A stretch of DNA of 8,221 bases. Origin: Xanthobacteraceae bacterium (GTDB taxonomy: Bacteria > Pseudomonadota > Alphaproteobacteria > Rhizobiales > Xanthobacteraceae). The notes under the pieces are model-generated. The model searched no databases and had not been told where the DNA came from. It saw nothing but the letters and a program-made list of their open reading frames with translations. The translations under genes and the position numbers were made by a program. Numbering within the stretch: the stretch's first letter is position 1; each line of letters starts with the position of its first letter. Location: NCBI GenBank assembly GCA_030043175.1, contig JASHYD010000670.1, forward strand, positions 1-8,221, in the 5' to 3' direction. Below are positions 1 to 8,221 of this stretch, piece by piece.

Positions 1-12
1 CTGCGAGCTCAA

Positions 13-257
13 ATGACGCTGCCGCAAGAGCTCATTCGCAAAAAGCGCGACCGGCTCACGCTCTCGCATGACGAGATCGCCGTCGCCGCCCGAGGCATCG
101 CCGACAATTCCTTGAGCGAGGGGCAGGTTGCCGCCTTCGCAATGGCGGTGTTTCTGGACGGATGACGACGCCCGAGTTCGTACTGACGCGCGGTCTGACG
201 GACTCCGTCCTGCGTTGGGACGCACCAAAAGGCCGCGGGCCCGTCCTCGACAAGCAC
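13..257 (+). pseudogene. deoA: deoA relic: N-terminal fragment of thymidine phosphorylase, frameshifted
   Basis: Thymidine phosphorylase converts thymidine and phosphate to thymine and deoxyribose-1-phosphate in the cytosol. From ATG 13 the reading gives MTLPQELIRKKRDRLTLS and then DNSLSEGQVAAFAMAVF. This matches the family's N-terminal helical domain (RKKRDG, ISEGQ, AAxAMA). The frame stops at TGA 163-165. The homology continues one frame over from 162 (MTTPEFVLTRGLTDS, then GPVLDKH), which fits a single lost base in the GG-ATG context. After VLDKH (255-257) the expected phosphate-binding STGGVGD motif is absent and the homology ends. About 80 of roughly 440 residues remain, so it cannot be active. 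The gene may begin at or just before the window edge, and ATG 13 matches the usual family start. Identification is from recalled family motifs. Confidence 0.72.
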
Positions 258-400
258 TGTGCGCGCTCCCGCCCAAGGCCGCTCGTTCGCTTCGTAGGCC
301 CGTTTCCGCGGCGGCTGAGAGGGATGTCCTGGCGGCCGGGACACTCCCCGGCGACGATACGAAATCGGAAGCGGTTCAATACGACCGCTATCCGCTCTAG

Positions 401-629
401 ATCGAAATGCTGAAGCAGTTGCCGGCAGCGGGGTTCATCGAGCGCATCCGCAATCCCGGTGACGAGCGTCAGGTGTTCGTCGAACTCACCGAGCGCGGCA
501 AGCCCCCCGAGGATCCGCGCCTCCTGCGTCGGCCGCACGGTTTTCGGTGACATCGGCATTCCGGTCGAACGCGTCTTCCGCGAGGTCAAGGCCCCTGCGC
601 GACCCCCTCCAAAGGGCCTTGTGCCCTAA
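401..629 (+). pseudogene. MarR/OhrR-type regulator relic (recognition half)
   Basis: The frame starting at 401 reads IEMLKQLPAAGFIERIRNP, then GDERQVFVELTERGK. This is the recognition helix end and beta-wing of a MarR-family winged helix, with the typical DERQV..LTE.G wing motif. After GK the homology moves to another frame (VGRTVFGDIGIPVERVFREV, to TAA 627-629), resembling the C-terminal dimerisation helix of OhrR-like proteins. The shift lies at a run of six C (about 503-508) and fits one extra C. The N-terminal helices are not recognisable upstream, where a TAG (398-400) closes the frame. OhrR proteins sense organic peroxides, but the sensing cysteine region is missing, so no specific function can be assigned. 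This relic is not related in sequence to the intact MarR gene at 3433. Confidence 0.55.
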
Positions 630-1229
630 TATTCTCGCGTATTGGGCCACGCAGCGAAGCAATCGAGAGCAAACCGCACGTTGTGCCCGGCATCGTCCCA
701 AACGAGCGTCGAGGATCATCCGCAAGGGCCCACGCCGACTGGAGGCACAGGCGATGACTGTCGATTGAGGCAAGCAATAATCGCGATCGGCTGTCCGGGG
801 TCTCGCGACGACGCGCTGTTTTATAAAAATGGGTCCGTCCCCTCGAGCATTGGCGATGGGTCGGTTTTGGCCCAAGGCTGACGAATTGGATGACGCGATA
901 GGTCGGCAGCTTATCTCGGGCGCTGCCAGGCGCAGTCGCAACGGCAGCCCTTGTATCATCAGGAGAACAGGATGGTCATGTGATCTAAAACCTTTCGCAG
1001 TGGCCCAGAGGGTTCGACACTCCCCCGGTAAAGGCCAGCCGGCCGGAAGCGAGCCTTACGCGTGAGTGGCAACACGAAACGCGAAGCGCAGGAGAGCAGG
1101 TGCTGACGCTGCGTGATTGATTCCCAAAATGCATATCGTCCGAAGCCCTCGTCGCCAAGGTAGGTGGGCAGCATCGATGTGACCCCCAAGGCGAGGCCGG
1201 TGCTTAGGTCCGCCGCGGCTATACGGCCG
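630..1229. other. Stretch without a convincing gene
   Basis: All open frames here on both strands are rich in Arg, Pro and Ser, lack plausible ribosome binding sites, and overlap each other antisense. A short run, RFWPKADE (about 862-885, +), resembles a peptide string I recall from many spurious hypothetical ORFs in Bradyrhizobium-like intergenic DNA, but I cannot verify that. A hairpin with 5-bp arms, GCGGC and GCCGC (about 1215-1230), lies just past the stop of the collagen-like gene and has no T-tract. I see no RNA gene. Confidence 0.5.
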
Positions 1230-1619
1230 CTATCTGACGCACACCGCGACGAGTGGACTATCTGAGGCGTTTGGGCTCACTCCGCAAGATGCGGCTTTTT
1301 CGCCAAGAAACGCGGCAGGTTTCCTGCTGGCTCCGCAATACGCAGTCACCAGCACTTCGCCGACCTCGCAGCTGACCTGGCAGGACTCCAGTAAACAGTT
1401 CACGCGTGTAATCCGAATCTGGGAGGCTGGACCTGGTGGTCCGGCGGGACCCGGCGGGCCAGGTGGTCCCTGCGGGCCGGATGGACCCTGCGGACCAGAT
1501 TCACCCTTCTCGCCGGCAGCTCCCTGTGGCCCAATTTCTCCCCTTGGCCCAGGAGACTGGCCACAGCTCACCAAGCAAAGCGATACGGCCATAAAGAACA
1601 AAAGCTGAGGTGAACGCAT
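1230..1619 (-). CDS. Collagen-like lipoprotein with Cys-rich C-terminal domain
   Basis: The gene encodes 129 residues. Residues 1-19 form a lipoprotein signal peptide: hydrophobic [14 protein letters not shown] with a lipobox LVSC, making Cys19 the likely lipidated residue. Residues 24-65 are 14 uninterrupted Gly-X-Y triplets (GPR GEI GPQ ... GPP GPA), a collagen-like rod that should form a short trimeric triple helix. Residues 66-129 form a small domain with six cysteines (75, 80, 84, 95, 112, 127), which could make three disulfides in the periplasm or at the cell surface. This three-part architecture matches short collagen-like proteins known in rhizobia. Function is unknown; a surface or adhesion role is only a guess. 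The start is ATG 1617-1619 with a weak AGAG upstream; a stronger GGGGGAG lies too far away. A miniature inverted-repeat element begins about 35 bp upstream and may carry or disturb the promoter. The reading frame is intact. Confidence 0.85.
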
Positions 1620-1658
1620 TGCATATCTCTAAAGGTCTCCCCCTGCTTAGCGGGCGGG

Positions 1659-1690
1659 ACATTACGAGGCCATGAAGGACGCATTACGAA
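1659..1690 (+). repeat. Left end repeat of the miniature element
   Basis: It holds two CATTACG units (1660-1666 and 1682-1688) separated by a spacer containing ATGAA. The same motif order, spacer ATGAA and 22-bp period recur at 8052-8080. Confidence 0.6.
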
Positions 1691-1755
1691 TGCCACAGAT
1701 GCACAGACACTCCACCAGCACCTCATAAACTCGACCTGCTAGACGATGGCCAATC

Positions 1756-1797
1756 GGTAATGCGCCGTCCATCCGCTCGCAATGTTCTTATCCGTAG
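1756..1797 (-). repeat. Right end repeat of the miniature element (inverted copy)
   Basis: Read on the minus strand it gives ACGGATAAGAACATTGCGAG and then, 22 bp after the first motif, CATTACC. The copy at 8041 begins ACGGAGAGGAACATTACGGG, so similarity extends about 12 bp outside the outer motif. Confidence 0.6.
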
Positions 1798-1961
1798 CAA
1801 TCCCCGCTGCTGCTTTTGTGAACACTTTTGCTTCCGATAACCGTGATTCCGAGATGCCGGTTTCCGCACGCCGGAGGGCAAAAGCGCCGCGAGCAAGCCG
1901 CCGCAGCTCACGCCGCTAGCCTCGCGGTGAAGCGCGCGCCGCCCGTGCTCAGCGCATCATC
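1798..1961. other. Region between the miniature element and the mscL stop, nothing recognised
   Basis: This stretch lies downstream of mscL on its coding strand. I see no T-rich terminator hairpin and no frame resembling a protein. Small open frames on both strands are Arg/Ala-rich shadows. Confidence 0.4.
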
Positions 1962-2388
1962 CTATCGCGCTTCGGCAGCGACTCGGCCAAGGTCAAAGCC
2001 GCAGTGCTTGCACTTGGTCGCGGCCGGGTTCAGGTCGTCGGAGGCACGCTGGACAAGTCTTGGTCGGAGGCGGGTCGCCGAACACCGCCTTACCTCGTCG
2101 CGCCATAACGAATTGTAGGGAACGACGATCGCGAAATACATGACGGCCATAAAGATGATGAAGTAAATGATCGCGGAGATGAATGCACCGACGTTGAGAT
2201 ATGTGGCATCGCTGCCGCCGCTGACCACCTGCCAGCCCAGCCCAGGGCCCTTCGCGGCGCCTTGTGCCGGTTGATAATGTTATCGGTGAACGCCTTGACA
2301 AGATTGCTGAATGCCAATGCCACGACCAGTCCGACGGCGACGACGATTACGTCCCCGCGCATCAGGAAGTTCCTGAAGCTTTCAGCAT
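1962..2388 (-). pseudogene. mscL: mscL: large-conductance mechanosensitive channel with C-terminal zinc ribbon, four frameshifts
   Basis: MscL is a homo-oligomeric inner-membrane channel that opens under membrane tension to release solutes during hypo-osmotic shock. The start is ATG 2386-2388, with GGAGG 7 bp upstream. Reading through shifts gives MLKA, FRNFLMRGDVIVVAVGLVVA (N-terminal helix and TM1), LAFSNLVKAFTDNIIN, a loop ending GLGWQVVSGGS, GAFISAIIYFIIFMAVMYFA (TM2), VMARRGKAVFGDPPPTKT, and finally CPAC plus CKHCGFDL. The last part is a four-cysteine zinc ribbon seen in a subset of MscL proteins. Frames change after MLKA, after NIIN, after VVPY and at CPACL. The first three fit one-base losses; the last is either +1 or -2. 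Corrected length is about 142 residues, normal for this subfamily. Residues are conserved throughout, so the damage is recent or is sequencing error. The stop is TAG at 1962-1964. A small ORF ends one base before the start, suggesting translational coupling. Confidence 0.85.
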
Positions 2389-2389
2389 G

Positions 2390-2551
2390 TCAATTCCTCC
2401 TTGTATACGGTTCGAACTCGCAACCGAAGGCAGGGGTTCCGTTATTGTTTGCGATGACGAGGGCGTTCCGCAGGTGCTTCACCAGAGTATTCCATGCGAC
2501 CCTGGCAACTCGGATTGATCGCCGCTCGCGCCGCTTGGGCCAATCGTTCAC
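2390..2551 (-). CDS. Small basic ORF immediately upstream of mscL, hypothetical
   Basis: This frame codes for 53 residues from GTG 2551 to TGA 2390-2392. It begins VNDWPKRRERRSIRVARV and ends GTPAFGCEFEPYTRRN. Its stop is separated by one base from the mscL ATG, and the mscL ribosome binding site lies inside its last codons, an arrangement typical of translational coupling. The middle (TLVKHLRNALVIANNNGTP) looks more protein-like than neighbouring shadow frames. I do not recognise the family. The GTG start lacks a visible ribosome binding site, so the true start could be further in or the frame could be fortuitous. It would share the mscL transcript. Confidence 0.35.
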   Translation of the reverse strand: MNDWPKRRERRSIRVARVAWNTLVKHLRNALVIANNNGTPAFGCEFEPYTRRN

Positions 2552-2823
2552 GGTGTGGTGCTAAAGCTCGCAGTCTCGGCGGTCGTCCGCGTCGTCAGCC
2601 GCTCGCCCCAGGTCGGAATACTCGCCCCAGGTCGGATTAGGTGTCATTACCACCGCGGTCGAGCTGGTCCGCCGCTCGGTTCTCAAGCGCGGGGCGATCA
2701 GCCCAAGCGGCACGAAAGCAAGTTAGCCCGAGTTCCCAGTTTTTCGCGGATCAGTTTCGCGGAATAGGCGCGGAACGGAGCAAAACTTTGCGCACGCCGG
2801 CAGGCATTAAGGCGGCGCCTTTG
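2552..2823. other. Gap between the mscL unit and the methyltransferase gene
   Basis: Apart from the 19-bp tandem repeat, nothing is recognised. The mscL promoter presumably lies here, since transcription runs leftward from this gap, but no clear -35/-10 pair is seen. Open frames on either strand are Arg/Ser/Pro-rich and lack ribosome binding sites. Confidence 0.4.
2602..2639 (+). repeat. 19-bp tandem repeat, two copies
   Basis: CTCGCCCCAGGTCGGAATA is followed immediately by CTCGCCCCAGGTCGGATTA, 18 of 19 bases identical. It lies in the non-coding gap between mscL and the methyltransferase gene stop, upstream of the mscL unit. It could be a chance duplication or a pair of protein-binding sites. 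Confidence 0.7.
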
Positions 2824-3318
2824 CTACAGCCAGCGGCGGACGCGCGCCTTGTAGTCGTGGTAAGCATCACCGAAGCGCCGCTCGAGATAGGCCTCCTCGC
2901 TCGTGACCACGCCGTAGCGCATGATGATCGCGAGAGGCAGCGTGAGGATAAGAGTCCACAGGCTGCGTGCAGCGAAGCCCATGCCGGCATAAAAGAAAAA
3001 CATGCCGAGGTAGATCGGATTGCGACTTAAGCCATGAATGCCGCTTGTCACCAGCGTCCGCACGGGTCGAGTGGAAGGAACCGGCGTAGCGGCGCGAGAA
3101 AAGTTGCGCACGCCCGCAGCAAAGATCGCGACACCAAGGACGATCAAACCGCCACCTGCCGCCCAACGCGCTAGGGCGGTCTCTGGCAACGCGAGCGGGA
3201 AAGGCAGGACGTGATCAAGCACAGGCCCGAAGATCAGGCAGGCGAGAAAGAGGAAGGGGGGCCGTGTTATGGGGCGCGCCGTTGCGGTATCGCGATCCTC
3301 TTGGCTGGCAGTGGCCAT
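2824..3318 (-). CDS. Isoprenylcysteine carboxyl methyltransferase-like (ICMT/PEMT family) integral membrane protein
   Basis: The protein is 164 residues. Family members are membrane-embedded methyltransferases using S-adenosylmethionine; the bacterial substrate is generally unknown. Visible hydrophobic segments are about 21-41, 54-72 and 104-135. The family's conserved core is present: TPVPSTRPVRTLVTSG (78-93) followed by SRNPIYLG (98-105), and the C-terminal cofactor-proximal EEAYLERRFGDAYHDYKARV (141-160). Length is typical for bacterial members. ATG 3316-3318 is chosen because GAGGA lies about 6 bp upstream; the frame stays open further upstream but would run antisense through the neighbouring regulator gene. 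It diverges from the MarR gene at 3433, with a promoter and palindromic operator between, so it is probably repressed by that regulator. The frame is intact. Confidence 0.85.
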   Translation of the reverse strand: MATASQEDRDTATARPITRPPFLFLACLIFGPVLDHVLPFPLALPETALARWAAGGGLIVLGVAIFAAGVRNFSRAATPVPSTRPVRTLVTSGIHGLSRNPIYLGMFFFYAGMGFAARSLWTLILTLPLAIIMRYGVVTSEEAYLERRFGDAYHDYKARVRRWL

Positions 3319-3354
3319 GTGGTTCCTCGGCGCCTTACCAGGCAATGCCCTTGG

Positions 3355-3371
3355 TGACAACTCAGCTGTCA
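3355..3371. promoter_or_regulatory. Second, imperfect operator-like palindrome
   Basis: TGACAACTCAGCTGTCA has arms matching at 7 of 8 positions and shares the TGACAAC half-site with the perfect repeat at 3379. It sits next to the -10 and around the expected start site of the leftward promoter, a place where a second repressor dimer would block initiation. Confidence 0.5.
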
Positions 3372-3399
3372 TTCTACGAATTGACAACACGGTTGTCAA
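3371..3399 (-). promoter_or_regulatory. Promoter of the methyltransferase gene
   Basis: On the minus strand TTGACA (3394-3399) is followed after exactly 17 bp by TAGAAT (3371-3376), close to the sigma-70 consensus. The start of transcription should fall near 3364, giving a leader of about 45 nt before ATG 3318. The -35 element lies inside the right arm of the perfect inverted repeat. Confidence 0.7.
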
Positions 3400-3401
3400 T
3401 T
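3379..3401. promoter_or_regulatory. Probable MarR operator: perfect 10-bp inverted repeat
   Basis: AATTGACAAC, spacer ACG, GTTGTCAATT: arms match perfectly, 23 bp in all. The size and symmetry fit a MarR-dimer operator. It covers the -35 of the leftward promoter and also contains a rightward TTGACA (3381-3386), although the rightward -10 region (about 3404) is weak. Binding here could repress both divergent genes. Confidence 0.72.
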
Positions 3402-3432
3402 TGCCATCCCTGCAACGAAGGAGCCGACGGCG

Positions 3433-3954
3433 ATGGCTACGGTGCGACCGGACAAAAGGGCGAGGCGGGTCGCCAGCAGTAAGGGCGAAGCGATCGCAGA
3501 GCTGATGATCGAGGTCGCGCAATTTTTCTTTCGTCTGCGTGCGGTCGGTCAGAAGACGGGTCACATCACCGACTGGGGTGCCGGATCGTTCGGTTTCATG
3601 CGCAGTCTGGCGCTGATCGGTCCTCTCACCGTTCCGCAGATCGCCAAGATGCGGCCGACCAGCCGACAGCGCATGCAGCGGCTGGCGGATGAGCTTGCGG
3701 CCCAGGGGCTTGTGGAGTTGATCGCCAATCCGAAGCATCGGCGATCGAAGCTGGTGCGTCTGACGCGCAAGGGTGATGAGCGTTATCGCGCGTTGAGCGT
3801 CCAATTGCTCGAAATTGCCTCAACTATGGGCGCCGATTTGAACGAGACAGATATCCGTCAGACCACGGAGGTCGTTCGGCGACTGAGAGACGAGACGAGG
3901 ATATTGGCGGATGCGCTGCCCGGAGATGGTAAGTCTGAACGTCGTTTCCGCTAG
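3433..3954 (+). CDS. MarR-family transcriptional regulator
   Basis: The protein is 173 residues, an intact winged-helix dimeric repressor of the MarR class. Residues 18-60 are the N-terminal dimerisation helices. About 65-92 (LTVPQIAKMRPTSRQRMQRL) are the helix-turn-helix with recognition helix. The wing is at about 96-113 (NPKHRRSKLVRLTRKGD), followed by a long C-terminal helical region. A C-terminal tail RILADALPGDGKSERRFR extends past the usual core. ATG 3433 has GGAG about 10 bp upstream (AAGGAGCCGACGGCGATG). It is divergent from the methyltransferase gene with a 114-bp gap holding a perfect palindrome, the standard layout for a regulator controlling itself and its neighbour. The ligand is unknown. 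Confidence 0.88.
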   Translation: MATVRPDKRARRVASSKGEAIAELMIEVAQFFFRLRAVGQKTGHITDWGAGSFGFMRSLALIGPLTVPQIAKMRPTSRQRMQRLADELAAQGLVELIANPKHRRSKLVRLTRKGDERYRALSVQLLEIASTMGADLNETDIRQTTEVVRRLRDETRILADALPGDGKSERRFR

Positions 3955-4207
3955 AATGGTCCCGTGCCCCTGGAAACTGGATCGCTTGCGATCGCCGCGG
4001 CTGTCGCCGACCCAACTCGCCGCGCTGCGGCGCATATGCGCGCTCAGTCGGCCGGCCGTGCCGCCATTTGGCGTCGGTCCCTTGAACGAGGGGCCGATTT
4101 CATAGCAAGCGAGCCTGGCCCGCCGCTCGGACGTCAGTGCGCCCCTCAAGGCTGGTCAGCAAACGCAAAAAGCAGCTCGTGAAGCTGCCGATGCAGCACG
4201 GGCCGCG
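3955..4207. other. Gap after the MarR gene
   Basis: A perfect 6-bp-arm inverted repeat, GATCGC-TT-GCGATC (3980-3993), follows the MarR stop by 26 bp but has no T-tract, so it is at best a weak terminator. Frames here are Arg/Pro-rich. A frame open from 4106 joins the next ORF (KAAREAADAARAAV at about 4166-4207) but has no start. Confidence 0.4.
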
Positions 4208-4581
4208 GTGAGTGGGGAAGGGATGTCGTCCGCCTCCGTCACCCGCCTGGTTCGTCGTTTGGCCAAAGTGCTGGAAAGCGTTGCATCAAGGGGTTCCACA
4301 ATCGTCGGCGCTCAGCGAAGCGTCGCATGGACAAGATCCAACACATGCCGACAACGCCTCGAACCGCAGGCCGAGACATACCGCGCCCTGATCGAAATTG
4401 CCGAAGAGGTGGTGGCAAACGCCAGAACCGCACTTGATACGACCAAGGACTTGCACGCCGAGACCATCATTAACGCGATGAAGATCGACGCCATTATGGC
4501 GACCGGCAGTTGCGCACCCGAATTTGCGATTACGAGATCATGATCGTGCTTCTGAAGACCATGTATCAAGAACGTTCGTAA
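4208..4581 (+). pseudogene. Degraded helical ORF, unrecognised (possible transposase remnant)
   Basis: From GTG 4208 the frame is open to TGA 4541-4543. Its most protein-like part is PQAETYRALIEIAEEVVANA followed by RTALDTTKDLHAETIINAMK, a helical, partly acidic stretch. The upstream part, VTRLVRRLAKVLESVASRG, is also helical. Past about 4500 a more natural continuation lies in the next frame, RTRICDYEIMIVLLKTMYQE, ending at TAA 4579-4581, which fits one lost base. The arrangement recalls the N-terminal helical region of some ISNCY-type transposases, but no DDE motif or inverted repeats are visible, so this is a weak suggestion. Start and boundaries are uncertain. Confidence 0.3.
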
Positions 4582-4740
4582 GTTCGCTGCGGAACGTTAG
4601 TAGGGGCCGTCACCAGGCTATCGGAAGCCTTTGGCGGAGCCTTGTCGTTATCCGAGCGACCGGTCATGGTGGATACCGCGACCAGCGGCATGACGCCGAC
4701 GTTATTTAATCTCACCGGGAAGCACTGTGAGAACAATTTT
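4582..4740. other. Short gap, nothing recognised
   Basis: No ribosome binding site followed by a plausible frame is seen until 4741. It contains GAACGTTCG and GGAACGTTAG (about 4570-4602), weak near-repeats of no clear meaning. Confidence 0.3.
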
Positions 4741-4750
4741 GGAGGTTGAA

Positions 4751-4774
4751 ATGGCCTTTTATCTCAGACCCTGA
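4751..4774 (+). CDS. Possible 7-codon leader ORF with strong ribosome binding site
   Basis: GGAGG (4741-4745) lies 5 bp before ATG 4751, followed by MAFYLRP and TGA 4772-4774, then directly by two hairpins. If the TTTT run at 4757-4760 were one T shorter, the frame would instead read MAFISDPEVAERRGRGKAAG to TAA 4812-4814. Either a tiny leader or a small frameshifted gene; it may also be chance. It is convergent with the small-protein operon ending at 4811. Confidence 0.25.
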   Translation: MAFYLRP

Positions 4775-4790
4775 GGTCGCCGAACGGCGA
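4763..4790. terminator. Two adjacent hairpins downstream of the small-protein operon
   Basis: CTCAG-ACC-CTGAG (4763-4775) and TCGCC-GAAC-GGCGA (4777-4790 with extra pairing) lie about 20-50 bp past the stop of the last minus-strand small gene. Neither is followed by a clear T-tract on either strand, so rho-independent termination is doubtful. They could protect the 3' end or act on the plus-strand leader ORF. Confidence 0.3.
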
Positions 4791-4810
4791 GGTCGAGGAA
4801 AGGCAGCCGG

Positions 4811-4903
4811 CTAATCGCGAACAAACAAATATCCCAACAAGATGGATGCTGGCGTAAAAACCGCCAGCAGTGCAATAGCTATCGTGGGCGCGGCGTTAAG
4901 CAT
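4811..4903 (-). CDS. 30-residue single-helix membrane protein (small-protein operon, third gene)
   Basis: ATG 4901-4903 to TAG 4811-4813 codes for 30 residues: MLNAAPTIAIALLAV, then FTPASILLGYLFVRD. Almost the whole length is one hydrophobic helix ending in a charged RD, a pattern of small inner-membrane proteins that accompany larger membrane complexes. It begins three bases after the stop of the preceding small gene, so it is probably translated by coupling (GGGAATGA precedes the start). I do not recognise a named family. KdpF- or CydX-like accessory peptides share this size and shape, but no partner gene is in view. Confidence 0.55.
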   Translation of the reverse strand: MLNAAPTIAIALLAVFTPASILLGYLFVRD

Positions 4904-4906
4904 GAG

Positions 4907-4995
4907 TCATTCCCGGTAGATGGAGTGTTTGTCGCCGATTAGGTGGCATACAGCTCCAATGGCGGCGACGGCCAGAATCACAATGATGGGAGCAT
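4907..4995 (-). pseudogene. About 29-residue membrane protein (small-protein operon, second gene), one base short
   Basis: ATG 4993-4995 is preceded by AGAGGTGA, a good ribosome binding site. The direct frame ends after MLPSL. One frame over, the sequence reads IIVILAVAAIGAVCHLIG and then DKHSIYRE to TGA 4907-4909, a clear transmembrane helix with a charged tail. The span is 89 bp, one base short of 30 codons, so a single lost base near CTCCCATC explains it. Its start is one base after the stop of the first gene and its stop three bases before the start of the third gene. This tight packing supports a real gene. Confidence 0.5.
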
Positions 4996-4996
4996 G

Positions 4997-5116
4997 TCAC
5001 CTCTTGTTTGATCGTACTTCCGCACAGCCACGCTCAAGCCGGCGGCGCAAGTGGTAGGAGGTGACAATGAGATCGGTGATCAAGGCAAAGAACACGCGGA
5101 TAGACTTTCGATGCAC
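4997..5116 (-). CDS. 39-residue small protein (small-protein operon, first gene)
   Basis: GTG 5116 to TGA 4997-4999 codes for 39 residues: VHRKSIRVFFALITDL, IVTSYHLRRRLERGCAEV, RSNKR. It has a basic N-terminus, one moderately hydrophobic helix (about 6-22) and a strongly basic C-terminal half, suggesting a membrane-anchored peptide with a cytosolic tail that could contact RNA, DNA or phospholipid headgroups. GAGGG (5127-5131) lies 10 bp upstream of GTG. Only one base separates it from the second gene. No family recognised. A plus-strand ORF (5067) overlaps it antisense and is the less likely choice. Confidence 0.45.
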   Translation of the reverse strand: MHRKSIRVFFALITDLIVTSYHLRRRLERGCAEVRSNKR

Positions 5117-5178
5117 GGAATCACTACCCTCAAATAAGTTCCCCGGGGAGGTTCACAACCCCCGTGGCCAAGCGACGC

Positions 5179-5209
5179 GCCCACCAAATGTGGGCTGCAC
5201 GTAGTGCAG
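5179..5209. ncRNA. Two abutting hairpins upstream of the small-protein operon (structured leader candidate)
   Basis: GCCCAC-CAAAT-GTGGGC (5179-5195) and CTGCAC-GTA-GTGCAG (5195-5209) are both perfect with 6-bp arms and share one base. A further perfect hairpin, GCCGG-TCTG-CCGGC, sits near 5260-5275, and CCCCGGGG near 5140-5150. They lie between the two-helix membrane protein gene and the first small gene, in the leader of the latter if transcription runs leftward. This may be a regulatory leader or a processed intercistronic region; no known riboswitch class is recognised. Confidence 0.3.
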
Positions 5210-5299
5210 TTCGATGAGGCAAGTTTTCAAATAGAATGATCCCCACCACGACGCGCCAGCCGGTCTGCCGGCCCTGGACAGCAGAGCGCGACAAGCAGG

Positions 5300-5636
5300 T
5301 TACGCGCGAAGGATTGGCGCAGGACTCGTCTCATTTGAACTATACGCCAAAGCCAGGGCAAAAGCGAAGATCACTGCAGCGGTCGCTGGCGAGAGGGTTA
5401 CAATGGCTGCCGTAAGGAAATCGCGAGGACGGTGACCGCAAGCGCCCCCACGAGGGTCGCAGTCGCACGTGCCAAGTGCTGACCAACTCCTCCTTCCCTG
5501 AATTGATGCGCCTGCCGAGTGTTCTTGTATTTACAATCTTGCTTCCGTCTTCCCGAGGATACGTATATTCATGAGTGTTGATTGGCCGATAGTCCTCCCC
5601 GAGTATGACGTGATCGTTTGCATCCGTCGTCGGCAC
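5300..5636 (-). pseudogene. Two-helix membrane protein, hypothetical, two frameshifts
   Basis: From GTG 5636 the frame reads MPTTDANDHVILGEDYRP, INTHEYTYPREDGSKIVNTR, then TLGRRINSGKE, a polar 49-residue domain. After a shift near 5485-5495 it reads RATATLVGALAVTVLAISL (helix 1). After another near 5410-5420 it reads ATAAVIFAFALALAYSSNE (helix 2), then TSPAPILRA and TAA 5300-5302. Adding two bases gives exactly 113 codons. Conserved-looking hydrophobic segments in successive frames argue that it is one gene with two one-base losses. No family recognised. The start is uncertain because no ribosome binding site precedes the GTG and the frame stays open further upstream. It diverges from the + strand gene at 5678 and is followed on the same strand by the small-protein operon. 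Confidence 0.5.
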
Positions 5637-5677
5637 ATGATTAACTTTAAACCGAACTCGCCATTGGGAGGTGCCGT

Positions 5678-6022
5678 ATGACCGACCTCGACGCCCTCCA
5701 GACGATGCTCCTCGACGAGTTCGCGCGTATCCACGATCGACTCAACACGATCGAGCACAAGCTCGGTCTGATCCCGAATTTGAATCTCCTGCTCACTGGA
5801 GCTTGCTCGGTGCGTTTTAAAACAGCCGAGGTCAACCGGTCGCAGTCGCTGGATCGTTTGTCGGTGCCGGCCGGTCTTCCCGGCAGGCCGCGAGGCAGAG
5901 ACTGGAGGAGACTGAATTGCCGCAGGACGTCCTCCAAGCCCCGCTCCTCGATAACCTTGCCGACATGCGGGACCGCCCCGCCTGTGCGCCCATTACGACG
6001 AGGCTGCCGCCAAGCAGATTAA
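5678..6022 (+). CDS. Small coiled-coil-like protein, hypothetical; C-terminal part doubtful
   Basis: ATG 5678 has GGGAGG 6 bp upstream, a strong start. The first 35 residues (MTDLDALQTMLLDEFARI, HDRLNTIEHKLGLIPNL) form an amphipathic helix with heptad-like spacing, typical of small coiled-coil proteins. From about residue 50 the frame becomes Arg/Pro-rich and unlike real protein. Another frame supplies PVFPAGREAETGGD ending at TGA 5913-5915, just before the next start. So the true protein may end at 5915 after a shift. It is the first of a run of closely packed + strand small ORFs. No family recognised. Confidence 0.45.
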   Translation: MTDLDALQTMLLDEFARIHDRLNTIEHKLGLIPNLNLLLTGACSVRFKTAEVNRSQSLDRLSVPAGLPGRPRGRDWRRLNCRRTSSKPRSSITLPTCGTAPPVRPLRRGCRQAD

Positions 6023-6119
6023 GCTCGTGCAGAAAGTCGGACTGTCAGGGACGCGCACGGGATGCCGCCGCCACTTCCCACCGCCGCTCGCACTCGCGAT
6101 TATCGACCCAGTGGGGTGA
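5917..6119 (+). pseudogene. Small ORF of the 5678-6738 cassette, one frameshift
   Basis: TTG 5917 is preceded by GGAGGAG with 6-bp spacing. It reads (M)PQDVLQAPLLDNLADMRD. After one lost base near 5970-5980 it continues HYDEAAAKQIKLVQKVGLSG and runs to TGA 6117-6119, three bases before the next ATG (6123). Corrected length is about 67 residues. The helical, balanced composition of both parts contrasts with the Arg-rich alternative frames. Function unknown. Confidence 0.35.
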
Positions 6120-6122
6120 GTT

Positions 6123-6263
6123 ATGACCTTCCCCGGCATCCCGGTCCACAAAGGCCCTTGCTACGGCTGCGGCACCAGAAACTATCCGCTGTCCGTCTCC
6201 GGCCCGAATTATTGCGAGCCGGTGTCGGATGATCCGATCATACTGCGGGGTCTGATCAAGTGA
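6123..6263 (+). CDS. 46-residue Cys-containing small protein, hypothetical
   Basis: It runs from ATG 6123 to TGA 6261-6263. GGGGTGA lies 4 bp upstream. The sequence starts MTFPGIPVHKGPCYGCGTRN and ends DDPIILRGLIK. It contains CYGC and a third Cys 15 residues later (NYCEP), enough for a partial metal site or a Cys-X-X-Cys redox motif, but a fourth ligand is not obvious. It sits between two small genes: the ribosome binding site of the gene at 6272 overlaps its stop. Too short to place in a family by eye. Confidence 0.5.
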   Translation: MTFPGIPVHKGPCYGCGTRNYPLSVSGPNYCEPVSDDPIILRGLIK

Positions 6264-6271
6264 GGCGAATC

Positions 6272-6568
6272 ATGGTCAAGGACACTATCGAATTTCGCAT
6301 GTCTCCCTCCGGAGAGGGACAGAAGCTTCACGACGTGGAGGGCAGTGTACGCTTTGTCCACGACGGCCATGCCATGCAGTCTGTGGTTGCTATTGCAATC
6401 AGGTTGGTTAAGACGGGCGTCTCTGACGACGAGGCTGTCGAGCGCGCTTTCGCGATGACCGACAAGATTATGCAGGGGATGCTTGATCGCGGCTGGGCGG
6501 TGATGGCACCGACATTTGCCGAGAGGGGCGATGATCGGCGAGTGGGATTTCTAGACCCGGCAGGGTGA
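6272..6568 (+). CDS. 98-residue hypothetical protein
   Basis: ATG 6272 is chosen over GTG 6260 because GAGG (6262-6265) lies 6 bp upstream and the preceding gene ends at 6263. The protein is acidic and soluble: MVKDTIEFRMSPSGEGQKL, then a likely beta strand VEGSVRFVHDGHAMQSVVAI, a helix DDEAVERAFAMTDKIMQGML, and a loose C-terminus ending VGFLDPAG. No signal peptide or membrane segment. Family not recognised; small-gene context suggests a phage or accessory cassette. The frame appears intact. Confidence 0.6.
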   Translation: MVKDTIEFRMSPSGEGQKLHDVEGSVRFVHDGHAMQSVVAIAIRLVKTGVSDDEAVERAFAMTDKIMQGMLDRGWAVMAPTFAERGDDRRVGFLDPAG

Positions 6569-6738
6569 TCAGTGGACCGCCCTGTCGATATCCATCCCTC
6601 CGCTCGTCGAGCTCGGACATAGAGCTGGAGCGGCGAGCCGATCGTCTGCGAGTGGACTGGTCGCTCTTTGAGGCTGTCGTGTTACCTGCCTTCAGGCGCT
6701 TAAGCAGCCGACGAGCTGAGCCATGCAACCCCCTGTGA
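6565..6738 (+). CDS. Small helical ORF overlapping its neighbours, hypothetical
   Basis: GTG 6565 overlaps the stop of the previous gene (GTGA). The frame is open to TGA 6736-6738, past the start at 6723. The C-terminal half, DIELERRADRLRVDWSLFEA followed by VVLPAFRRL, is a convincing amphipathic helix region. The first 15 residues are Pro/Ser-rich and may be out of frame. About 57 residues. No family recognised. Confidence 0.3.
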   Translation: MISGPPCRYPSLRSSSSDIELERRADRLRVDWSLFEAVVLPAFRRLSSRRAEPCNPL

Positions 6739-7065
6739 CGTCCTCTCGTCCTCCCGGTAGGAGCCCGTGGCAGCCGACTGATTGGTTCAGAAGTCCGCTT
6801 CGACTTGACGTATCCGCGATCACGTCCGGCGGCGCTGCCTGGACGCTCGATTGTGCGGTCGATGATCCGACCCGCGCCTTGCCGAATCCATTGCTAAACC
6901 CGGCCAGCCCGCCGATGTGAGTGGCGGCGGCCAGCCCGGCGCTCGGAATGTCGCCGTCGACAATTCCAGCAATTGTTCGGGAGCAGTCTCTCCAGTGGAT
7001 CGTCCGGCAGGGTGACTGCCCAAGACTTCTCGATCACTCAGCCGACCGCGTGGCGCTTGACGCTA
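6723..7065 (+). pseudogene. Phage-structural-like protein, frameshifted
   Basis: ATG 6723 begins MQPPVTSSRPPGRSPWQPTD, then WFRSPLRLDVSAITSGGAAW, then a DDPT motif, and stops at 6918-6920. The pattern WxPxDWxxSPxxL..V followed by DDP resembles small structural proteins found in alphaproteobacterial prophages (recalled, unverified). The sequence appears to continue in the next frame as SGGGQPGARNVAVDNSSN (about 6917-6975), and then as VTAQDFSITQPTAWRLTL (about 7012-7065), a beta-rich end. Both shifts fit one-base losses. Weak ribosome binding site (GAGCTGAG). The end is uncertain. Confidence 0.35.
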
Positions 7066-7246
7066 TTCATCGCTGGGATCGATCGCGATGTTCAGGATGA
7101 ACGCAAGGTTCAGAATGTCAGCTCGTGTAGGAGGACTGGACCAATAGACGGGCGACGATGCAGCCTCCGATTTGGTCCGAAATGGCCCATCACCCGTCAT
7201 GGAACACGTAGACTATTGGCGATTGAGAAGGCGAGTTATCGAAGGC
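7066..7246. other. Gap before the terminator, nothing recognised
   Basis: A short frame from ATG 7090 (MFRMNARFRMSARVGG to TAG 7147-7149) has no ribosome binding site. No RNA gene or repeat is seen. Confidence 0.35.
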
Positions 7247-7272
7247 AAAGGGCGGCCCGGAGACCGCCCTTT
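7247..7272. terminator. Bidirectional hairpin terminator
   Basis: AAAGGGCGG (7247-7255), an 8-nt loop, and CCGCCCTTT (7264-7272) form a perfect 9-bp GC-rich stem with A/T flanks that can end transcripts from both sides. It lies about 87 bp past the stop of the leftward BA14K-like gene and downstream of the rightward small-gene cassette, as expected between convergent units. Confidence 0.75.
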
Positions 7273-7358
7273 GGATCGCTGCTGAGTGGCTTTGTGAACG
7301 GCAACTTAGCCGACGAGCCTTCGTCCGTCTCGCAAATCAGCACGTTCAGCGACGTGGC

Positions 7359-7868
7359 TCATGGACAGGAATGGCGCTGGCCATCGTTGCCCAGATAGGT
7401 TCCGGTTTTCGGATCGTATGACCGGAAGCGCTGCATGCAGGAGGCGATTGGATCGCCGACGGGTGGGCCGCCAGCATACCCGGGCGGGCCGCCGACGGGT
7501 GGGCCGCCAGCATACCCGGGCGGGGGCGCGCCCGCATTGCCAGGCAGAGGCGCCGAATAACCTGGGCAGACTTGGACCGGCTGGCCAGTATAGCCGACGA
7601 CGCGGCCCGCACCATCATAGATAGGCCGGGACGCCCAATAGCAGCCTGGCGCGTAAACCGGTGCCGCATAGCCGTCGTAGACAACATAGCCAGGAGGCCG
7701 CGAGGCAATGATGGCCCCGGCGATGACGGCGCCGCCGACGACGCCGGCGGCAATACCTGGTCCCCATCCCCATCCTCGCTTCCACCAAGCGGAGGCGTCC
7801 GTCGCCGTCGCGGCCACCATCACTACAATCGTTGCTGCGCCGAGTAAGCTAACGATGGTCTTCTTCAT
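7359..7868 (-). CDS. Secreted BA14K-like protein with Gly/Pro-rich linker
   Basis: The protein is 169 residues. ATG 7866-7868 has AAGGAG about 7 bp upstream; the TTG one codon earlier is less likely. Residues 1-27 form a signal peptide with cleavage after ASA (VVMVAATATDASA). Residues 33-56 are a Gly/Ala-rich hydrophobic segment (GWGPGIAAGVVGGAVIAGAI) that may be membrane-associated. A Tyr/Gly-rich middle follows, then a tandem 12-residue repeat (PPGYAGGPPVGG, PPGYAGGPPVGD; 116-139). The C-terminus, CMQRFRSYDPKTGTYLGNDG then QRHSCP, is the BA14K motif known from a Brucella immunoreactive 14-kDa protein with lectin-like activity. Cys76, 101, 144 and 168 may form disulfides. It likely acts in the envelope. 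The frame is intact and ends at a strong terminator downstream. Confidence 0.88.
   Translation of the reverse strand: MKKTIVSLLGAATIVVMVAATATDASAWWKRGWGWGPGIAAGVVGGAVIAGAIIASRPPGYVVYDGYAAPVYAPGCYWASRPIYDGAGRVVGYTGQPVQVCPGYSAPLPGNAGAPPPGYAGGPPVGGPPGYAGGPPVGDPIASCMQRFRSYDPKTGTYLGNDGQRHSCP
7455..7524 (-). repeat. 36-bp tandem duplication inside the BA14K-like gene
   Basis: Two copies of a 34-base identical unit start at 7455 and 7491, period 36, so exactly 12 codons are duplicated and the frame is kept. The near-perfect DNA identity shows recent duplication, and the copy number may vary between strains. Confidence 0.85.
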
Positions 7869-8040
7869 CAATGTCTCCTTGGGGGGTTGGCGGGCGCCGC
7901 GCGTGCAGACCGGGATTTCCTCAGATTCCGAATGCAGGTCCGGAAACCTGCTGATCGACCCGTGTGGGCCGTGCTGGAGACACCACGGCGGACCTGACCG
8001 AATTCATTGCTCCCAAAATGAGTAAGGCTGCCATCGTGAT
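7869..8040. other. Upstream region of the BA14K-like gene
   Basis: The promoter of the leftward gene must lie here, but no clear -35/-10 pair stands out. GGAAACCTGCTGATC-type sequence is present without recognised symmetry. No ORF is convincing. Confidence 0.3.
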
Positions 8041-8090
8041 ACGGAGAGGAACATTACGGGATTATGAACGGCACATTACCGAATAATCGC
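8041..8090 (+). repeat. Transposon-end-like repeat matching the miniature element
   Basis: ACGGAGAGGAACATTACGGG is followed by ATTATGAACGGC and ACATTACCGAATAATCG. CATTACG (8052-8058) and CATTACC (8074-8080) are 22 bp apart, as in both ends of the element at 1650-1797. A gene ends just inside at 8113, so this is probably the left end of a larger element that continues beyond the window. Confidence 0.6.
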
Positions 8091-8112
8091 GCCTCAATCT
8101 AATTTGACAGAG

Positions 8113-8221
8113 TCACACTCGTTGTTGTCTATGGCGGCTGTGTGCTGCGGCTCGGAAACGGGATTGGATGGCGCCGAGCCGCCGCTGGTGACGTTCGTTG
8201 ATCCGGCGCACCAGCGCCTCC
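8113..8221 (-). CDS. 3' end of a gene running off the window, possibly the element's transposase/recombinase
   Basis: On the minus strand a frame enters from the edge: EALVRRINERHQRRLGAIQS, then RFRAAAHSRHRQQRV and TGA (8113-8115). Only about 35 residues are visible, basic and helical. Its stop is about 35 bp from a transposon-end-like repeat, a usual position for a transposase or recombinase gene. No family can be read from this piece; other frames are also open, so the frame itself is uncertain. Confidence 0.3.
   Translation of the reverse strand, partial: EALVRRINERHQRRLGAIQSRFRAAAHSRHRQQRV

Follow-up and report, generated by a model that had tools for sequence, protein, structure and literature searches.

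REP/BIME-type repeats are short, intergenic and arranged in alternating orientation, and OmpR/PhoB-type response regulators use direct half-sites, phased at 11 or 22 bp, in front of the genes they regulate. IS21 elements have TG...CA termini accompanied by a target duplication. According to PMC10122671, the direct repeats of IS21 are spaced at 23 bp, an arrangement similar to that of a repeat described here, in which each end also carries two repeats about two helical turns apart (22 bp). This repeat is present in three copies, A, B and C, in a window of 8,221 nucleotides, by which we mean the whole stretch of DNA that was analysed.

A, B and C resemble REP/BIME-type repeats as short intergenic repeats of alternating orientation; unlike those repeats, the A/B/C sequence does not form a clear palindrome by itself, and three copies of it are seen here. 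The phase of the half-sites (11/22 bp) agrees with that of an OmpR/PhoB-type operator. A and B together are similar to a MITE in being short, in having inverted arms and in carrying a possible 5-bp flanking repeat, and differ from one in that A-B is the single unit seen, with no family of copies and no matching transposase. Below, we show that A, B and C are homologous, that A and B are inverted relative to each other and that the repeat does not form the end of a neighbouring IS701-family element. The reading we prefer, tentatively, is that the three copies belong to a diverged dispersed repeat in which A-B forms a MITE-like unit and C is a solo or split copy.

Three homologous copies with a constant motif period

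The features discussed in the text are collected in Table 1. The 22-bp spacing of the motifs is exact in all three pairs (in B, CATTAC at 1757 and CATTGC at 1779 on the minus strand), and the original prediction of two inverted ends and a third copy, each with two CATTACG-like motifs 22 bp apart, is borne out to the exact position in A, B and C. A weaker ATGAACG between the CATTAC half-sites gives an 11-bp beat, seen when the copies are laid out in 11-base blocks.

Table 1. Coordinates of the repeat copies, their flanks and the adjacent genes
Feature	Position	Strand	Remarks
Collagen-like protein gene (lipoprotein by eye)	1230..1619	-	downstream of A
TCCCC, left flank	1638..1642		possible 5-bp target duplication
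Repeat copy A, left arm	1643..1695	+	CATTACG at 1660 and 1682
Spacer between arms A and B	1696..1747		
Repeat copy B, right arm, inverted to A	1748..1800	-	CATTACC and CATTGCG, 22 bp apart
TCCCC, right flank	1801..1805		possible 5-bp target duplication
BA14K-family protein gene	7359..7871	-	downstream of C; TTG start as listed, ATG directly after
Repeat copy C, solo within window	8036..8086	+	CATTAC at 8052 and 8074
CTAA, YTAR-type tetranucleotide	8099..8102		at edge of IS701-family element
TTTGACAGAGTCACA	8103..8117		edge of IS701-family element, identical in L180
IS701-family transposase gene, C-terminal end	8113..8221	-	stop codon 8113-8115

A and B delimit a unit of 158 bp (1643-1800) with inverted arms of about 53 bp, so that the terminal inverted repeats expected of a MITE are present, though diverged. 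Identical columns number 36 of 55 in the A-B arm alignment (65%, with 4 gap columns), 37 of 55 in A-C (6 gap columns) and 37 of 53 in B-C (2 gap columns). The copies had been predicted to agree over about 45 bp; the homology is real, while its extent is about 50 bp per arm and the arms, merely 65-70% identical, are much diverged. Copy C has no inverted partner inside the window. The DNA between C and the insertion sequence (IS) edge shows no meaningful similarity to the A-B spacer, and the likeness of the 19 bases 3' of C to that spacer is limited to 7 of 8 bases.

The homology of all three copies is confirmed by statistical comparison, and the repeat is real. B/C heads the list of nine inverted pairs in the window (1754-1799 against 8037-8082, 46 nt, 78%). 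The top repeat pair across different sixths of the window scores 42, which none of 800 dinucleotide shuffles reaches (maximum 41; Gumbel p 2.7e-4), and a profile derived from B and C alone recovers A with 14.7 bits (E 2.7e-4), the next best match having an E of 0.37. These two results stand against the view, which we consider improbable, that A, B and C are left over from an unrecognised ordinary duplication or are in part similar by chance. In keeping with that view, the window does hold decayed sequence (a split mscL), 3 of 100 shuffles reach the B/C score of 42 in a cruder test that includes local palindromes, and A by itself is weak in pairwise comparison, because 28 of 500 shuffles score as high as C does against the remainder of the window.

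Flanks and folding of the A-B unit

Direct TCCCC repeats flank the unit exactly at 1643 and 1800, a match found for 2.65% of random segments of similar size. The left TCCCC lies within a purine-rich stretch before the collagen-like gene, a bias that raises the odds of a flanking repeat by chance. With the termini set at TG...CA (1644-1799), the A-B unit has no target duplication. Unlike the IS21 family, moreover, the window has no IstA or IstB among the 9 ORFs scanned with Pfam (52 listed), the right-edge fragment and the copy-C peptide. The ends had been said to recall IS21; with no target duplication at TG...CA termini, this kinship is unsupported.

An RNA structure formed by A and B is likewise not supported. 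A structured RNA or terminator in the leader of the collagen-like gene could in principle account for the inverted repeat, and the minus strand does fold into one long imperfect stem (-57.9 kcal/mol), with a terminator-like hairpin and T-rich tail (1794-1813, plus strand) running in two registers across the outer end of B (shuffles give 0.5). The z-score of the fold is only -1.63, however, 12 of 200 shuffles give a fold as stable or more stable, and the window contains no Rfam match at the gathering score, which leaves this explanation with a slim chance.

A reading of the repeat as coding sequence was also rejected. One frame gives TLR...R.IT in all three copies (in C, MSKAAIVIRRGTLRDYERHITE); 18 of 391 genomes match at E 1 or better, with a best value of 0.02, about chance level, and four of the matches (L105, L108, L111 and L114) have no DNA similarity. 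The protein collection holds no candidate, and neither Pfam nor NCBIfam has a corresponding family.

An IS701-family element at the right edge

Positions 8099-8221 take in one end of an insertion sequence of the IS701 family, including the C-terminus of its transposase, the remainder lying outside the window. Only the last 35 residues of the right-edge gene fall inside (EALVRRINERHQRRLGAIQSRFRAAAHSRHRQQRV), and they have no match in Pfam, NCBIfam or plasmids. Among 198 genomes, 142 give some match to this query at E 1 or better, mostly by chance because the query is so short. The match in G139 is of another order, with 74% over residues 1-28 and an E of 8.4e-7 against 0.01 for the runner-up, and its locus, L180, has a 456-aa frame that encodes a transposase of the IS701 family (NF033540, E 5.5e-101; Pfam DDE_5, 3e-56). 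Judged by this similarity, the gene leaving the window is an IS701-family transposase, and the gene past 8113 is thereby tied to transposition, as anticipated.

The sequence TTTGACAGAGTCACA is common to the window and L180 on the 3' side of the gene. Among 191 loci, it is contained only in L180 and L190, which are the same element. Outside it, the flanks of the window and L180 agree at 16 of 70 bases in register, with a local score that 318 of 500 shuffles reach, and by eye the L180 flank resembles a toxin-antitoxin gene pair. Copy C, ending at about 8086, lies 16 bp outside the IS edge at 8103. Because the edge is TTTGACAGAGTCACA, C lies beyond it and the flanks are unlike, C is not the end of the IS701-family element.

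Three plasmid-borne members of the IS701 family have inverted repeats that start beside a YTAR tetranucleotide. In two of them the tetranucleotide recurs exactly at both ends (TTAA and CTAG, respectively), and the third has CTAG and TTAG at its ends. The window is similar to this family in having, at its right edge, an element with a YTAR-type flank and a transposase C-terminus, while the sequence of that edge is unrelated to A, B and C. At the four-base position where the window has CTAA, L180 has TTAT. The ends of the plasmid elements bear a weak likeness to the window edge. The other end of the element was not found in L180 or L190, and that of the window copy lies outside the window.

These results bear on the original proposal that a likely autonomous element stands at the right edge, with C as its terminal repeat and A-B as its MITE. 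The part concerning a transposase gene holds. The part concerning C and A-B is very nearly untenable: the window and L180 share TTTGACAGAGTCACA as an outer edge with no similarity beyond it, and the unfiltered repeat profile gives one chance-level match (E 0.91) in five IS701-family loci (L180 and L190, the same element, and L192-L194, from plasmids). The ends of A-B are not shared with the one transposase element seen. The clear result carries a caution, namely that a transposase beside a repeat does not make that repeat its end.

Distribution of the repeat

The repeat profile (R1), searched with stricter filters and 15 candidates scored per genome, matches at E 0.1 or better in 18 of 391 genomes of the family of Bradyrhizobium erythrophlei (G001), with a best value of 2.1e-4. 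This best match, a solo arm in G028 (L155), is borderline, about 0.08 such matches being expected by chance over the 391 genomes. By eye, it is intergenic, located at the stop codon of a glycosyltransferase-like gene and upstream of a CBS-domain-like gene. Fuller scoring was applied to genome sets that overlap with the 391. With a threshold of E 5, 7 of 23 genomes matched (best 0.097); with E 3, 6 of 16 (best 0.007); and with E 0.1, 4 of 40 (best 0.003). Across these sets and G028 itself, nothing stronger was added.

Several other R1 matches fall in coding sequence, as judged by open frames (L156, L159, L161, L163 and L165) or by likeness to L156 (L158), and L168 lies inside a long open frame; L124 overlaps open frames of doubtful value. 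The review of gene context left out L160, L162, L164, L166, L167, L169, L170 and L171. An inverted pair with a similar core in the dctM hairpin of G197 and G096 (L157 and L176, orthologous loci) was rejected as evidence of kinship, with an E of 0.007 in 1 of 391 genomes. Near position 1500 of both loci, a strong hairpin follows a dctM-like gene and precedes a gene for a small exported protein; the observation concerns one genus, and the names were assigned by eye.

A strict pattern of the repeat has no match in the genome and viral collections. Looser core patterns find 2 and 5 stretches in viral contigs, all seven of which fit only part of the profile; two of these viral stretches (L195 and L201) look like phage coding sequence. 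No DNA match was found for the A/B region in plasmids or phages, for the C region in plasmids, or for window positions 1-8000 in plasmids in near mode. The literature, surveyed by title and the start of the abstract, contains no description of the repeat to that depth.

Closer at hand, a metagenome protein (P0001) is 93% identical over the collagen-like protein and looks to come from a sister strain. Its N-terminal reading spans most of B and A and leaves the amino acids of both unchanged (LRADGRRITDWPS; ASVAFVMRPSWPRNV), whereas the spacer and downstream flank differ and the frame is shifted relative to the window. This comparison was made by eye on amino-acid readings, which do not extend to the outer end of B. 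The amino-acid reading of a second protein, P0121, gives the same result for A. Together, these readings suggest that the arms persist in sister strains. The metagenome contigs that encode P0001 and P0121 measure 21.9 kb and 4.7 kb. A third protein, P0003, is 87% identical and reads differently upstream.

Neighbouring genes and possible regulation

Besides the genes in Table 1, the window holds a phospholipid-methyltransferase-like gene (2824-3318, minus strand) and a MarR-type regulator (3433-3954, plus strand), and much of it looks non-coding or decayed. An mscL-like sequence (1962-2362, minus strand) is split over two frames that correspond to profile positions 10-40 and 65-97, the second just below the curated cut-off. 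Further direct repeats are a perfect one of 35 bp in the BA14K-family gene (7454-7524, spacing 36) and a tandem one of 19 bp, 95% identical, at 2602-2639. Relatives of the collagen-like protein are found in 158 of the 391 family genomes at E 1e-5 or better and in 20 at 1e-20 or better; across 377 genomes of the order, the one match at 1e-20 is G298, already in the family set, and plasmids contain no match. The host therefore probably belongs to this family. A closely related genome did not emerge: whole-window DNA matches, in the form of short pieces, occur in 20 of 43 genomes of G298's genus, the listed ones being located in the methyltransferase and BA14K genes. The methyltransferase-like protein has its best relatives in Mesorhizobium, Dongia, Parvibaculum and metagenome bins labelled Vicinamibacteria and Luteitalea, a scatter that suggests horizontal movement or mis-binning.

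The position of the repeat relative to these genes raises the possibility, which we regard as unlikely, that A and C are operators in which direct CATTAC half-sites two helical turns apart control the downstream genes, with B as a second operator in the same upstream region. This reading would draw on orientation, phase and the kinds of genes involved. A and C are equally oriented relative to the downstream minus-strand genes, A lying 23 bases from the start codon of the collagen-like gene and C 164 bases from that of the BA14K gene; the 22-bp phase is maintained in all three copies; and the borderline G028 match is likewise intergenic, upstream of its CBS-domain-like gene. A homology of about 50 bp is nevertheless long for an operator, and a scan limited to sigma-70-like promoters finds none at either site. 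Nor does the distribution favour it: apart from the single borderline match among 391 genomes, the R1 profile, with a threshold of E 2, finds nothing in 60 loci, of which 56 surround relatives or pieces of the two downstream genes and 4 the methyltransferase (the 158 genomes that match the collagen-like protein are represented by only 30 loci).

A conserved promoter of the collagen-like gene was rejected, as far as deep conservation is concerned, on the same profile result (0 of 60 loci) and on a weight-matrix scan of 104 loci, which gave 4 weak matches (14.6-16.7) against 1 in reversed sequences; the window copies score 39.5-47.3 with this matrix, which was trained on them.

A tentative model and its implications

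In the reading we prefer, A, B and C would all derive from a single short dispersed repeat that is restricted to this lineage, and would since have diverged. The MITE-like unit would have A and B as its two inverted arms. C would either stand alone or serve as left arm to a copy that continues past the end of the window and may have been interrupted when the unrelated IS701-family element inserted later, 16 bp away. A transposase acting in trans would move the repeat, recognising the arms by their paired 22-bp-phased sites. The homology of the three copies, the inverted arms, the TCCCC flanks and the layout kept in an apparent sister strain support this model; it is weakened in that no complete second copy is known, the arms are much diverged and C is without a partner in the window. 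The most specific version, in which A-B would represent, in intact form, a new MITE family with paired 22-bp-phased recombinase sites and an unseen transposase, and C was split by the IS701-family insertion, strikes us as decidedly improbable.

Neither the MITE-like reading nor the operator reading is backed by wider conservation, and the two would carry different consequences. If A and C are operators, they would join two presumed envelope-protein genes in one regulon. If A-B is mobile, it would represent a small new repeat family that places promoter-proximal sequence before presumed envelope genes of an alphaproteobacterium.
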